From contig NZ_CP116221.1 in assembly GCF_023556315.2 (NCBI RefSeq), positions 3,052,001 through 3,116,000 on the forward strand: a stretch of DNA of 64,000 nt, read 5' to 3'. Each line of letters opens with the position of its first letter. The stretch's first letter is position 1. This DNA is from Psychroserpens ponticola (GTDB lineage Bacteria; Bacteroidota; Bacteroidia; Flavobacteriales; Flavobacteriaceae). The notes under the pieces are model-generated. The model was not told the origin of the DNA. It worked only from the letters and a program-made list of their open reading frames with translations, and ran no database searches. The translations under genes were made by a program, and so were the position numbers. Shown in pieces: positions 2,129-26,312 of this stretch.

Positions 2129-3355
2129 TTAAGCTGTTTTAACTTTTAGACGTTTCATTCTTTTCTTTACATTGCCTTGAACCACATAATGGTCAATCGT
2201 TGGTGCAAACACATTCATTAACAGAATGGCTAGCATCACACCTTCTGGATAAGCTGGATTAAATACACGTATCATTATGGAAATAAATCCAATTAAAAAT
2301 CCGTAAATCCATTTTCCTTTATTTGTTTGCGAAGCGGTTACAGGATCTGTAGCCATAAAGACTGTACCAAAGGCAAATCCACCAATTAATAGGTGATGCC
2401 AAAATTCGGTACTCATTAAACCGTAAAATTTACTTGATTCAGTAATCCATCCTGAACTTACAACGCCATTAAATATTAATCCCATGACTAAAGCTCCAAT
2501 AGCTGAAGACAACATGATTCTCCAACTTCCAATCTTTGTAAAGATTAAAAACAATCCAGCTAATAGAATTAAAAGTGTTGAAGTTTCTCCAACTGAACCA
2601 GGAATAATTCCGTAGAACATATCCATAACTTCATAACCAACGTCTTTCCCTTGTGCTAATGTTCCTAAAATGGTTTCACCAGAAATGGCATCCAAATTTT
2701 CACCAGCTGCAATCATTTGATCACGTTCAACAGCACCATGAACCCAAACTTTATCTCCTGACATCCATGTAGGATATGCGAAGAATAAAAAGGCTCTAAT
2801 GGTTAATGCAGGGTTTAGAATATTCATTCCTGTACCTCCAAATACTTCTTTTCCGATAACAACACCAAATGCAACTGCAACTGCTAGCATCCATAATGGT
2901 GTATCAATTGGTACGATTAAAGGCACTAACATACCTGTTACTAGATACCCTTCTTCGACTTCGTGACTATTTTTCATAGCAAAGAATATCTCAATGGCTA
3001 AACCTACTCCATAAGACACGATTACTAACGGAATGACTTTCCAAAAGCCAACTAATAAGTTATCTATCGTCCAAAATGCCGAACTTAAGAACCCTCCAGT
3101 TGCTGCTTGAATATCTCCAAAAGCTAAGTGATGTTGATATCCAGCATTATACATTCCGAAGATCAAACAAGGTACCATTGCCATAATGACTGTATTCATG
3201 GTACGCTTTAAATCATCAGCTGCTTTAATATGAGTCCCATTATGAGTCGTCTCATTTGGTAAGAATAAAAATGTATGAATTGCAGAAAATGCTGGCAACC
3301 ATTTTTTATCCTTATTCTTTTGTCTAAAATTATGTAAACTACTTTTTAAACCCAT
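2129..3355 (-). CDS. nqrB: Na+-translocating NADH:quinone reductase subunit B
   Basis: Largest membrane subunit of Na+-NQR; it carries a covalent FMN and riboflavin and is part of the Na+ path. The 408 residues form about ten helices, with the signatures GKEVFGGTGMNILNPAL (168-184) and a GGFAFGTVFMATDPVTA segment. The flavinylation site reads DAISGET, placing the acceptor Thr at residue 228; the usual motif has Ala where this protein has Glu227. The ATG overlaps the nqrA stop by one base (TAATG), a common coupling arrangement. The assignment is secure; the motif variant is listed as a finding. Confidence 0.97.
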   Translation of the reverse strand: MGLKSSLHNFRQKNKDKKWLPAFSAIHTFLFLPNETTHNGTHIKAADDLKRTMNTVIMAMVPCLIFGMYNAGYQHHLAFGDIQAATGGFLSSAFWTIDNLLVGFWKVIPLVIVSYGVGLAIEIFFAMKNSHEVEEGYLVTGMLVPLIVPIDTPLWMLAVAVAFGVVIGKEVFGGTGMNILNPALTIRAFLFFAYPTWMSGDKVWVHGAVERDQMIAAGENLDAISGETILGTLAQGKDVGYEVMDMFYGIIPGSVGETSTLLILLAGLFLIFTKIGSWRIMLSSAIGALVMGLIFNGVVSSGWITESSKFYGLMSTEFWHHLLIGGFAFGTVFMATDPVTASQTNKGKWIYGFLIGFISIMIRVFNPAYPEGVMLAILLMNVFAPTIDHYVVQGNVKKRMKRLKVKTA

Positions 3356-21630: not shown

Positions 21631-22632
21631 ATGAACGACGCATTTATTATTACACTTGCTTATCCTGAAACCATAGTGACTCACGCTGAAGAATGGTACT
21701 CCCCTTTTCTTAGATTTTTGTTTGTTGGAAACAAGACACATGTAAGAGCTGGACATGCAGCTTTAGTTTTAATTGATAAATCTACTGGTGTTTTAGAATA
21801 TTTTGATTTTGGAAGATATACGACATCTTTAGGCCATGGTAGAGTTAGAGGTCGAGACACTGATTTCGAGCTACATATTCCTATTGTTCCACAAATTGAA
21901 AACAATCAAATTGCAAATCTTGATGACATTTTAAAATTTTTAGCGTCACATCCAAAACTCACTCATGGAGAGGGAAATCTATATGCTTCCGTTTGTAATG
22001 CCATAGATTATCAAAAAGCGAAACAGTATATAACTACAATTCAAAATCAAGGATTTATTCGTTATGCTGCATTTATAAAGAATGCTTCCAATTGTTCACG
22101 TTTTGTAACTGACACTTTAATTACGAGTGTTACTGATGCTTCCATCAAATCTAATCTTATTAAATCAAAATGGTTTACTCCAAGTACTATCGGAAATGTT
22201 GTTCTTTCTGACACAGAAAACCATGTTTATATCGTATCTGAGTCTCGTCAAATTTCAAAATTTAATTCAACTGTTAGAAAAGAAAATAGACGACTGTTTT
22301 TAGATGTTCTAAAAGGATACATCCCAAATGTAGTTGGATCACTTGAACCAAAACACAATACGATTATAAAAAATCATGCACAATGGTTAAGTGGCATTGG
22401 ATCGGGAGCTTGGTTTGAACTTTATGATTTGAATCACCAAACTGAATTTCGTTTCAGAAGAATTTCACCATATGGGAACATTGACTGTGATGGAATTTAC
22501 ATGATAGATTCTGAAGGGTTTGATATTTCAACTAACTATGAATTCATACATTATTCAAATTGTCAATATTTTCACATTATGCAGAATAATGCCACGTATA
22601 GATTTAAATTTTTGAAAAAATATAATGACTAG
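21631..22632 (+). CDS. Uncharacterised protein, possible permuted NlpC/P60-like fold (DUF6695-like)
   Basis: The 333-residue protein has no signal peptide or membrane helix. The N-terminal half contains RAGHAALVLIDKS (His42) followed by EYFDFGRY, and later NASNCSRFVTD (Cys155). A His in a strand-turn motif before an NC..F motif is the pattern of circularly permuted papain/NlpC-P60-like proteins such as YiiX/LRAT types, so His42 and Cys155 could form a catalytic pair. This is inference from motif order. The C-terminal part (from about residue 215) has a strand-rich region with aromatic residues and no recognised motif. I recall a flavobacterial family numbered DUF6695 with this look. It overlaps apaG tail to tail by four bases. 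Confidence 0.6.
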   Translation: MNDAFIITLAYPETIVTHAEEWYSPFLRFLFVGNKTHVRAGHAALVLIDKSTGVLEYFDFGRYTTSLGHGRVRGRDTDFELHIPIVPQIENNQIANLDDILKFLASHPKLTHGEGNLYASVCNAIDYQKAKQYITTIQNQGFIRYAAFIKNASNCSRFVTDTLITSVTDASIKSNLIKSKWFTPSTIGNVVLSDTENHVYIVSESRQISKFNSTVRKENRRLFLDVLKGYIPNVVGSLEPKHNTIIKNHAQWLSGIGSGAWFELYDLNHQTEFRFRRISPYGNIDCDGIYMIDSEGFDISTNYEFIHYSNCQYFHIMQNNATYRFKFLKKYND

Positions 22633-23125: not shown

Positions 23126-24487
23126 CTAAAAATCTTCCGAAGCAACAAATGCTTCTAAAGTTTTGAAAAATGCAACAATATCTTTTTCTTCAACTTGCGT
23201 ATTAATAGTCACTAATCTAACAAATGTATCCTCTCTAAATGTGCCATAGCCAACCATTAATTTTGAATGCTCATAGAGCTTAGTACACAAGGTTTTCGCT
23301 GAAACACCTTTATAGTTAAAACATACAGAAATAGAATCGTCAAAACTGTACAATGTATAATTTGGATTTGATTTTATATAATGTCTAGCAAAATCTGCAA
23401 GCTTGAATTGATGGTCTACAATTTTTTCAAGTCCAAGGTTTCCAACAGACTTCCAGAGTGTCCAAAGTTTTAAGGCATCGTTACGTCGACCACATTGAAG
23501 TGAGGTCTTACCTAAATTAAAAGCATCATCATCTGTTTGATAGAGATAATCGGCATCATTTGAAAACGATTGGTATAAGTGTTTTTTATTTTTAGTTACG
23601 ATAATTGAACATCCCAAAGGTGTACCTAACATCTTATGGGCATTTAAACTAAATGAATCTGTTAACTCAATACCTTCTACTAAATGTTGATATTGTTTAC
23701 TAAAAATAACGGAGCCACAATAAGCACCATCTAAATGCAACCAAAGGTTATGAGTTTTACAAACCTTACTGATGCTCACAACATGATCAAAAGCACCTAA
23801 AACAGTAGTTCCTGCAGTCGCATTTACAAAGAATGGATGATAACCTTTGTTAATATCATTTTGAATTTGAACTGCTAAATCTTCAGTCAACATTTCACCT
23901 TTAGCATTTGTTTTTACAGACCTTACTTGTTGTCTTCCAATACCAGCAAAAGATGCATTTTTAGTCACTGAATAATGAGATGCATCTGAAGTATATGCTA
24001 TTAATCTCTTAGACACACCTTCATTTCTTATTGAAGCATCAAAAGCATCTCTAGCCATTAACATTGCCATATAATTACTCATTGAACCTCCAGGTGCTAG
24101 TGTACCATCACTCTCATTACCATAACCTATGCGATTACAAATTTGTTGCAATATTACTTTTTCGATGCCAACTTGAACTCCAGCAACTTTATATGTGTAC
24201 ATGCTATTATTAAGCATTACAGCCAATAAATCTCCTAAAGTCGCTCTAGAGATTCTTCCACCAAACAACTGATTAAAAAAAGCTTTTGAGGCTGTTTTGG
24301 GAGTGCTTTTCACAATATCTTTTAACGTATTTTTAAAGGCATCATCAATTGTAGGTTCGTCTCTAAGCTCTAGATCTATAGTATTATAAAGTGTTTTGGC
24401 ATCAATAGGTACTGCAACAGGATTGTTTGTTTCTTCAGAAATTAAAAACTCAGCGAGTTCAATAAACAATTTTAAGTCGTTATGCAT
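23126..24487 (-). CDS. Group II PLP decarboxylase, probable cysteine sulfinate (or glutamate) decarboxylase
   Basis: Cytoplasmic fold-type I decarboxylase of 453 residues. It shows FFNQLFGG near 71-78, APGGSMSNY (131-139), the PLP-stacking His171 in DASHYSV, TAGTTVLGAFD (224-234), Asp253 in HLDGAYCG, the Schiff-base Lys285 in LNAHKMLG and CGRRNDALKLWTLWK near 334-348. The last block and the HYS, TTVLGAFD and FFNQLF blocks closely follow animal cysteine sulfinate decarboxylase and glutamate decarboxylase as I know them. The gene is divergent from a cysteine dioxygenase (96 bp apart), whose product is cysteine sulfinate, so hypotaurine formation is the best guess. Aspartate, glutamate or 2,4-diaminobutyrate are other possible substrates. 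Confidence 0.8.
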   Translation of the reverse strand: MHNDLKLFIELAEFLISEETNNPVAVPIDAKTLYNTIDLELRDEPTIDDAFKNTLKDIVKSTPKTASKAFFNQLFGGRISRATLGDLLAVMLNNSMYTYKVAGVQVGIEKVILQQICNRIGYGNESDGTLAPGGSMSNYMAMLMARDAFDASIRNEGVSKRLIAYTSDASHYSVTKNASFAGIGRQQVRSVKTNAKGEMLTEDLAVQIQNDINKGYHPFFVNATAGTTVLGAFDHVVSISKVCKTHNLWLHLDGAYCGSVIFSKQYQHLVEGIELTDSFSLNAHKMLGTPLGCSIIVTKNKKHLYQSFSNDADYLYQTDDDAFNLGKTSLQCGRRNDALKLWTLWKSVGNLGLEKIVDHQFKLADFARHYIKSNPNYTLYSFDDSISVCFNYKGVSAKTLCTKLYEHSKLMVGYGTFREDTFVRLVTINTQVEEKDIVAFFKTLEAFVASEDF

Positions 24488-24583
24488 AAGTGGTTTTGGT
24501 TCTCTAATTTTTGGCTTTGTGTAAATTTATTCCTATTTTCTCAAATTATTATAACAATCTCTTTCTAATTTATTTTTAGCTTA

Positions 24584-25129
24584 TTGAAATCGCCAGAAAA
24601 CATTCAAGAATTAATACAACTGTTGTCGGAAACCACAAAATCGCATTACAATTCAATATTGAATAATTTTGATTTTAACACCATAGAATTTCAAGATTTC
24701 GAGAGTTGGTCATCAAAAAAATACACTCGAAATTGCTTGTATAAAGATTCACAATTTGAATTGCTTTTATTGTGTTGGAATGAAGGTCAAGAGACTTCAA
24801 TACATGGTCATGATGGTGAAGATTGTTGGGTATATTTATTACATGGAGAAATGGAAGAAGTTTTTTATTCATTAGACGATTCTAATTACCTAGTAGAAGA
24901 ACGGTCGCAAAATATCTTACCTCAACAGTTATCATTTATGAATGATAGAATTGGTTTTCATAAATTAAGAAATCGATTTAATGGAAAGTCTATGAGTTTG
25001 CATTTATACGCAAAACCAATTGAACAGTGTCGTTTTTATTGTGAAACTTCAGAACAATTCATTGAAAAAAAACTAAAATATGACACGCATAAAGAGTTGA
25101 TATTTGGTGTTACTTGCAAGCTAATATGA
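24584..25129 (+). CDS. Cysteine dioxygenase (type I)
   Basis: Non-haem iron cupin that oxidises cysteine to cysteine sulfinate. The 181 residues contain the metal ligands His74 and His76 in HGHDGEDC, the third His126 in GFHKLRN, Cys81 at the position that forms the Cys-Tyr crosslink in mammalian CDO, and Tyr142 in SLHLYAKP as its partner. Both crosslink residues being present is notable, since many bacterial enzymes lack the Cys. The start is TTG at 24584; no in-frame ATG exists before the conserved region. The stop overlaps the ATG of the following regulator gene (ATGA), so the two are translationally coupled. Confidence 0.9.
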   Translation: MKSPENIQELIQLLSETTKSHYNSILNNFDFNTIEFQDFESWSSKKYTRNCLYKDSQFELLLLCWNEGQETSIHGHDGEDCWVYLLHGEMEEVFYSLDDSNYLVEERSQNILPQQLSFMNDRIGFHKLRNRFNGKSMSLHLYAKPIEQCRFYCETSEQFIEKKLKYDTHKELIFGVTCKLI

Positions 25130-25662
25130 ACCCAATTTCAAATTTAATTGACAAAATAAACAGCCAACAACTTTGGGATAGAGAAATCGAATTAGAACGC
25201 AATGAATATTTAAAGGTAAAAGGAAGTATTGACACAAATATTTATTTGGTAAAAAGTGGGAGCCTAAGAATATTTGTAGTTGATGAATTCGAAGAACATA
25301 CAATAAGATTTGGTTATAAGGACAACTTAATAGCCTCTCTAGATTCTTTTTTAAATGAAAAACCTTCAGACTTCTATATTCAAGCGTTAAAAAGAACTCA
25401 TGTTAAAATCATCAATAAGAAAAAGTATAAATCCTTCATCGAATCATCATCAGAAAATAAAGAAATATGGCTTTCTATTTTAGAGAGTTTCGTTTTGCAG
25501 CAAATGGAAAGAGAAAGAGATATTCTTACATCATCTCCAATTGAACGATACAAAAGAGTATTGGAACGAAGTCCTCAGCTATTTCAAGAAGTACCAAATA
25601 AATATATTGCTTCGTATTTAAGAATGACACCTGAAACACTTTCTAGAATTAAAAAATCTTAA
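25126..25662 (+). CDS. Crp/Fnr-family transcriptional regulator
   Basis: The 178-residue protein has an N-terminal cyclic-nucleotide-binding-like beta roll (EYLKVKGSIDTNIYLVKSG near residues 27-45) and a short C-terminal winged helix (VPNKYIASYLRMTPETLSRI at the end), the pattern of small Bacteroidota Crp-like regulators. The ATG at 25126 overlaps the stop of the cysteine dioxygenase gene. An upstream in-frame TTG at 25114 is possible but lies inside that gene. No cysteine cluster for an Fe-S sensor is seen, so it is not a classical FNR. Control of the cysteine dioxygenase/decarboxylase pair is inferred from coupling. Confidence 0.85.
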   Translation: MNPISNLIDKINSQQLWDREIELERNEYLKVKGSIDTNIYLVKSGSLRIFVVDEFEEHTIRFGYKDNLIASLDSFLNEKPSDFYIQALKRTHVKIINKKKYKSFIESSSENKEIWLSILESFVLQQMERERDILTSSPIERYKRVLERSPQLFQEVPNKYIASYLRMTPETLSRIKKS

Positions 25663-25718: not shown

Positions 25719-26312
25719 ATGGCATTAGCAACTGAAAAATTATTACAAAACTTATTAGAGATTACTCGTGAGAACTTAAACAGCGTAGAACAATTAAAAA
25801 AGCAACCTCTTGATTCTCTCAATTGGAAACAAGACTCTGAAAGTTGGAGTGCATTAGAATGCATTGAACATCTAAATTGGTATGGAGATTTCTATATTCC
25901 AGAAATAACAAACAAAATAAAAACTTCTAAATACAAGCATTCTGAAATTTTTAAAAGTAATTGGCTAGGTAAATATTTTAGCAAATCAGTTTCTTACAAT
26001 GAGGATTTAAACAAAATGAAAACGTTTAAATCTATGAATCCTTTAAACTCAAAACTAGATATTCAAACACTACACAAATTTATAAATCAACAACATCAAA
26101 TAATAGAGCTTTTAGATAAGTCTAAAAAAGTAAATTTAGACAAAACTAAAACAGCAATTTCAATTTCATCATTAATCAAATTGAGATTAGGTGATACATT
26201 TAGGGTTGTAATATATCATAATGAAAGACATATTAAACAAGCAGAAAAGACAGTGAAATTGCCAGAAGGTAACAACGTGCATAATCAATGCTATCCTCCT
26301 ACTTCAATTTAA
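25719..26312 (+). CDS. DinB-superfamily protein
   Basis: The 197-residue four-helix-bundle protein has the DinB_2 pattern: SESWSALECIEHLNWYGDFY near residues 42-61 supplies one His, and YHNERHIKQAE near 166-176 supplies the other two metal-ligand His. The superfamily includes metal-dependent thiol-S-transferases (bacillithiol and mycothiol types) and proteins of unknown role. It starts 56 bp after the Crp-like gene on the same strand. A role in thiol chemistry would fit the cysteine genes before it but is not shown by the sequence. Confidence 0.82.
   Translation: MALATEKLLQNLLEITRENLNSVEQLKKQPLDSLNWKQDSESWSALECIEHLNWYGDFYIPEITNKIKTSKYKHSEIFKSNWLGKYFSKSVSYNEDLNKMKTFKSMNPLNSKLDIQTLHKFINQQHQIIELLDKSKKVNLDKTKTAISISSLIKLRLGDTFRVVIYHNERHIKQAEKTVKLPEGNNVHNQCYPPTSI

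Follow-up and report, generated by a model that had tools for sequence, protein, structure and literature searches.

A decarboxylase (Dec) and a cysteine dioxygenase (CDO) encoded side by side in Psychroserpens ponticola most probably form a two-gene cysteine-to-hypotaurine module, in which Dec is CSAD-like. Both genes lie in a window of 64,000 nucleotides, the whole stretch of DNA that we analyzed, from a genome consisting of one contig of 4.03 Mb. In the proposed pathway, CDO would add O2 to cysteine to form cysteine sulfinate, from which Dec would remove CO2 to yield hypotaurine, possibly oxidized further to taurine, and a shared 96-bp region would control Dec and CDO together. These substrates and this product are predicted from the enzyme families, active-site residues, linkage, and divergent control region, all of which are visible in the DNA and its translations. 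In animals, enzymes of these two kinds make hypotaurine, from which taurine is formed, out of cysteine. In the bacterium the module may serve to supply an osmolyte, to provide an antioxidant, or to dispose of cysteine. It resembles the route to taurine via CDO and CSAD known from bacteria (Agnello et al. 2013; Synechococcus PCC 7335) in its two enzymes and in the sequence of cysteine, cysteine sulfinate, and hypotaurine. Set beside that route, the flavobacterial module has mostly divergent genes, a conserved control region, and a CDO that is often missing while Dec stays.

A cysteine-to-taurine route in marine flavobacteria has already been reported: a 2025 paper (PMC12585060), which cites three references, Agnello 2013 included, lists marine flavobacteria among the organisms that make taurine via cysteine. 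For Psychroserpens, Winogradskyella, flavobacteria in general, and Bacteroidota, none of the titles listed by literature searches, which covered mainly papers outside subscription, dealt with the CDO/Dec module. PMC8153620 reports that the CSAD of Synechococcus PCC 7335 was purified. According to PMC7891661, marine prokaryotes use dissolved taurine as a source of carbon and energy. Conservation of the route in Psychroserpens, some Winogradskyella and Polaribacter, and other Bacteroidota would mark these as possible taurine producers.

Layout and linkage of the two genes

The locus comprises the following features, in window coordinates:
23126..24487, minus strand: Dec, CSAD-like group II PLP decarboxylase, 453 aa (PF00282, Pyridoxal_deC, 2.8e-76)
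24522..24539, strand given as ".": conserved intergenic element, TAAATTTATTCCTATTTT in the CDO sense, defined by conservation in relatives
24584..25129, plus strand: CDO, cysteine dioxygenase of the Arg type, 181 aa, TTG start (PF05995, CDO_I, 3.2e-23)
25126..25662, plus strand: Crp/Fnr-like gene (PF00027, cNMP_binding, 4.6e-07)
25719..26312, plus strand: DinB-like gene (PF12867, 1.7e-10)

Dec and CDO are divergent with a gap of 96 bp, and the ATG of the Crp-like gene (25126) overlaps the TGA stop of CDO (25127-25129) as ATGA. This arrangement had been described in a sequence-only reading of the window and was confirmed by the coordinates and Pfam matches; the four motifs quoted there for Dec were all found in its translation. 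The in-frame start candidates of CDO between 24541 and 24660 are all TTG, with an upstream stop at 24566, and TTG stood at the aligned CDO start in 20/20 loci of the genus. Elsewhere in the window, a plus-strand gene at 21631-22632 combines a TseH-like domain (PF25218, 4.3e-65) with DUF6695; this TseH-like/DUF6695 gene adjoins ApaG in the same neighborhood at many Dec loci.

Three surveys, with overlaps allowed for, contained 35 different CDO-bearing genomes, and Dec adjoined CDO in 33 of them, the two genes being adjacent and conserved together as in a bacterial CDO-CSAD module. The family survey (149 genomes) identified CDO in 11 genomes, always with Dec adjacent, divergently in 9 and on the same strand in G009 and G131. 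Among the 23 genomes of the genus survey, all had Dec and 20 had CDO, and the 20 pairs were all adjacent and divergent. The phylum sample (395 genomes) contained CDO in 8, with Dec adjacent in 6; two of the CDO genomes showed no Dec match at 1e-70. In the best 80 of 474 named Dec loci, a non-random set taken by similarity in which some stretches are short, CDO was beside Dec in 43 (29 divergent, 14 same strand) and not in 37. Among the loci with both genes on one strand are some from Polaribacter, Lutibacter, Cyclobacteriaceae, and Saprospiraceae. The Dec-CDO pairing is far above chance. Together with the CSAD-type residues and the CDO active site described below, this conserved neighborhood supports the cysteine-to-hypotaurine pair put forward in the sequence-only reading. 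That reading had also suggested looking in relatives for the pair plus a regulator; the pair was conserved, mostly divergently, but the Crp-like regulator was not conserved there.

The closest of the best 80 of 474 named Dec loci were from an "Algicola" MAG (86%), Psychroserpens jangbogonensis (86%), and P. mesophilus (85%). Algicola is a gammaproteobacterial name that does not fit this MAG, whose gene order is flavobacterial. Among viral contigs, 53 stretches fit a pattern and none was a relative. Plasmids yielded 93 records, all below 60% identity, with 20 listed at 28.7-31.6%.

Active sites and relatives of CDO and Dec

Compared with solved structures (PDB), CDO matched mammalian CDO1 at 4.5e-22. 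The B. subtilis-type CDO (3eqe) and 3-mercaptopropionate dioxygenase (4wvz) belong to the same family but were weak matches relative to CDO1 (1.7e-6 and 3e-4, respectively), and no NCBIfam family matched CDO. Like CDO1, the window CDO has equivalents of Tyr58, Arg60, His86, His88, Cys93, His140, Ser153, His155, Tyr157, and Cys164; its iron-binding residues are H74, H76, and H126, and R49 corresponds to Arg60. It differs from CDO1 in being bacterial, and the crosslink of its Cys/Tyr pair is putative. This pair, Cys81/Tyr142, aligns with the crosslink-pair residues Cys93/Tyr157 of the mammalian enzyme, a pair characteristic of eukaryotic CDO. The remark of the sequence-only reading that the window CDO has a pair lacking in many bacterial enzymes is right, and a review (PMC4019311) states that the cysteine is missing from many bacterial CDOs; PMC8050391 describes bacterial CDO forms that use an unmodified Tyr. 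Cys93 was kept in 77/79 CDO rows (61/63 when rows distinct by their last 120 residues were counted), the exceptions, L218 with Gly and L219 with Trp, being the two CDOs that have no adjoining Dec. Position 157 was Tyr in 78/79 rows, the remaining row being truncated, and six Winogradskyella CDOs carry either Ser or Asn at the Cys164 site. Judged from these alignments, the clade of the window CDO consists of bacterial CDOs that keep the Cys93/Tyr157 pair. The CDO-like domain of L219 (genome G204) belongs to an open frame of 566 aa, the C-terminal part of which appeared methyltransferase-like by eye.

The best solved-structure matches of Dec (PDB) were mouse GADL1 (2.2e-77) and CSAD (3.6e-76 and 8.5e-76), with GAD structures at 1.1e-69 (GAD2) to 4.9e-69. 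A fold search with a Dec model also ranked GADL1, CSAD, and GAD first (TM ∼0.7, rmsd >13 Å), with 30-33% identity to animal CSAD/GADL1 and the same fold. The model was used for the fold only, because its low-confidence stretches (94-101 and 310-331) include the selectivity residues 95 and 97. Unlike the animal enzymes, Dec has a shorter N terminus, query residue 31 corresponding to chain residue 78. As in group II PLP decarboxylases, Dec has a PLP lysine, Lys285 in NAHK, aligned with NPHK of CSAD. In solved-structure alignments, F75/S95/Y97 of Dec (F-x19-S-x-Y) align with F/S/Y of CSAD, the same three sites being S/N/F in GAD and Y/S/Y in GADL1. The abstract of Agnello 2013 reportedly names the residues that occupy the three GAD/CSAD selectivity positions. 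That three active-site positions set GAD/CSAD selectivity is stated in PMC8153620, citing Agnello 2013.

By pattern, F/S/Y was present in 43/44 CDO-linked Dec rows, window included, and the 44th (L140) was recognized by eye; this motif count left out the broken Dec of G112. The same residues were found in 35/37 Dec rows without CDO and in L034, a distant decarboxylase of G116, a genome without CDO, so F/S/Y alone is no proof that cysteine sulfinate is the substrate.

In a tree of 99 rows, the 81 Dec rows formed one clade, sister to the animal GAD/CSAD/GADL1 enzymes as a whole (SH-aLRT 87), with 13 other decarboxylases all outside this grouping; the tree was built by a quick method without bootstrap and with a midpoint root, and carried long-branch warnings. 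This 99-row, midpoint-rooted quick tree did not unite Dec with animal CSAD apart from GAD. Since Dec is sister to animal CSAD, GADL1, and GAD together, we describe it as CSAD-like at the selectivity sites and, as far as this phylogeny goes, not as an ortholog of animal CSAD alone. The CSAD label of the sequence-only reading is therefore upheld at the three selectivity residues but not by the phylogeny it had called for, in which Dec is not nested in CSAD.

The same tree bears on the alternative that Dec has nothing to do with cysteine metabolism, being instead a decarboxylase of the PanP type or one for glutamate or diaminobutyrate. The best NCBIfam matches of Dec were indeed to diaminobutyrate decarboxylase (NF052646, 173 bits) and PanP (TIGR03799, 120.8 bits), but these fell short of the cut-offs of 900 and 606.1 bits, and no NCBIfam family scored above cut-off. 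The position of Dec next to the animal enzymes, the absence of the S/N/F of GAD, and the linkage to CDO likewise argue against such an identity, which we regard as scarcely credible.

Support for steps beyond hypotaurine was not convincing in the window genome. An FMO-like match scored 31.3 bits versus a Pfam cut-off of 22, covering only positions 72-213 of 532, and Xsc scored 312.6 bits versus a cut-off of 676.4, in a search that also gave matches under the cut-off in 14/14 control genomes. Neither match was convincing for hypotaurine oxidation or taurine breakdown in this genome.

Decarboxylases without a dioxygenase

Dec could mainly act on another acidic amino acid, converting cysteate to taurine or, as proposed for GADL1, aspartate to beta-alanine, with CDO as an optional supplier in some lineages. 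Consistent with this alternative, 8/19 Dec-bearing family genomes kept Dec without any CDO in the genome at the thresholds used, and the 37 of the best 80 of 474 named loci mentioned above had no CDO beside Dec. No hidden divergent CDO was found in the CDO-less Dec genomes, the PF05995 search returning the same 11/149 family genomes. According to PMC8153620, human CSAD also takes cysteic acid as a substrate, aspartate and glutamate being weak ones. In addition, the Dec of G040 and a pair of identical Mangrovimonas copies, none of them with a CDO, show Y/S/Y, the GADL1 pattern.

Other results weigh against a different main substrate. Dec adjoins nearly every CDO found (33/35), F/S/Y is kept in most CDO-less rows, and panD was present in 18/19 Dec-bearing family genomes (139/149 family genomes overall), the 19th being a genome that is 64% complete. 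As panD accompanies Dec in these genomes, Dec need not replace it, and a function of Dec as a panD substitute is unsupported. Furthermore, the space between Dec and a conserved convergent gene (ESTR) in L134, a locus of a close relative, contains a decayed CDO remnant (2669-3000; two short stretches, 2.1e-06) next to a full-length Dec, and the intergenic element has 3 mismatches there; L111 of G158 showed the same picture, with a CDO remnant between ESTR and an intact Dec. The loss of CDO in L134 thus looks recent. Overall, we consider it rather unlikely that Dec acts mainly on another acid, and we retain cysteine sulfinate as its probable substrate where CDO is present.

Mapped on the Dec tree, the presence or absence of CDO requires 9 changes, of which starred branches force 6, all other rows serving as the comparison. 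CDO-less Dec proteins would either obtain their substrate from another source or use another acid. One scenario, which we hold to be possible though improbable, is that in many Flavobacteriaceae a CSAD-type Dec works without CDO, for example converting cysteate directly to taurine, and that CDO with the intergenic element is an add-on, repeatedly lost and possibly regained, and controlled from the spacer by a regulator. The many Dec loci without CDO provide a handle on the real substrate of Dec, as the element does on regulation.

The two Mangrovimonas copies are L165 and L166 of Mangrovimonas sp. TPBH4, which encode identical Dec proteins ∼70 kb apart on one contig. Their identity reflects either a duplication or an assembly artefact.

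The intergenic element and the genes around CDO

In the 20 CDO-bearing loci of the genus, the gap of 89-96 bp contains a conserved core. An 18-bp element was found with ≤2 mismatches in 20/20 CDO-bearing genus genomes, and the three CDO-less genus genomes had 3, 6, and 8 mismatches. Among the best 80 of 474 named loci, it was present (≤2 mismatches) in 20/29 divergent loci, seven Winogradskyella loci being among those with the element, in 0/14 same-strand loci, and in 0/37 CDO-less loci. Nine divergent loci lacked it: L150, in which it has 4 mismatches, and eight that do not share the usual gene neighborhood. Since the element-less divergent loci mostly lie outside that neighborhood, the element goes with a divergent CDO in the usual neighborhood. 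The consensus was picked after the alignments had been viewed, so these statistics are not blind; composition-only shuffles of the upstream stretches reached ≤2 mismatches in 0.019% of cases. We take the element as a candidate promoter or operator of CDO, or the two combined, that perhaps also acts for Dec. Candidate promoter hexamers, a -33 TTG and a -7 TATTTTTT, were picked by eye against the Bacteroidetes consensus.

The sequence-only reading had given the pair its own Crp-like regulator, which would make the Crp-like protein a dedicated regulator of Dec and CDO. The ATGA overlap with CDO on the same strand is in keeping with this role. However, the gene following CDO at 19/19 other genus CDO loci was ESTR and no Crp-like gene was present, and the window Crp-like protein had no match at 1e-6 in any of the best 80 of 474 named Dec loci, within the stretch available. 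On contig C10, G156 carries a Crp-like gene 85% identical to that of the window and, right after it, a DinB-like gene with 84% identity, whereas CDO is on C9. Moreover, the element is kept where the Crp-like gene is absent, and the window genome contains seven Crp-like matches, the window gene included. We therefore rejected the Crp-like gene as the regulator of the module, a role that is now very unlikely. Together, the Crp-like gene and the DinB-like gene make up a unit of two, located behind CDO only in the window genome among those examined. The simplest account is that this unit landed behind CDO in the lineage of the window; the two genes probably do not regulate CDO in a conserved way, and the Crp-like gene looks like a chance neighbor outside the module.

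Other genes were noticed near the pair in individual genomes. A sodium:solute symporter is beside Dec on the same strand in L057 (6686-8173; by a family scan, above the general SSS cut-off and under that of PutP) and in L058 (10111-11658; assigned by clustering), perhaps a transporter for the product or a precursor. Some relatives have other genes of a DNA-binding type close to CDO: an HTH_3 match adjoins CDO in G112 (L062, 95-667), and a gene judged XRE-like by eye lies two genes from CDO in G114 (L057, 10645-11067).
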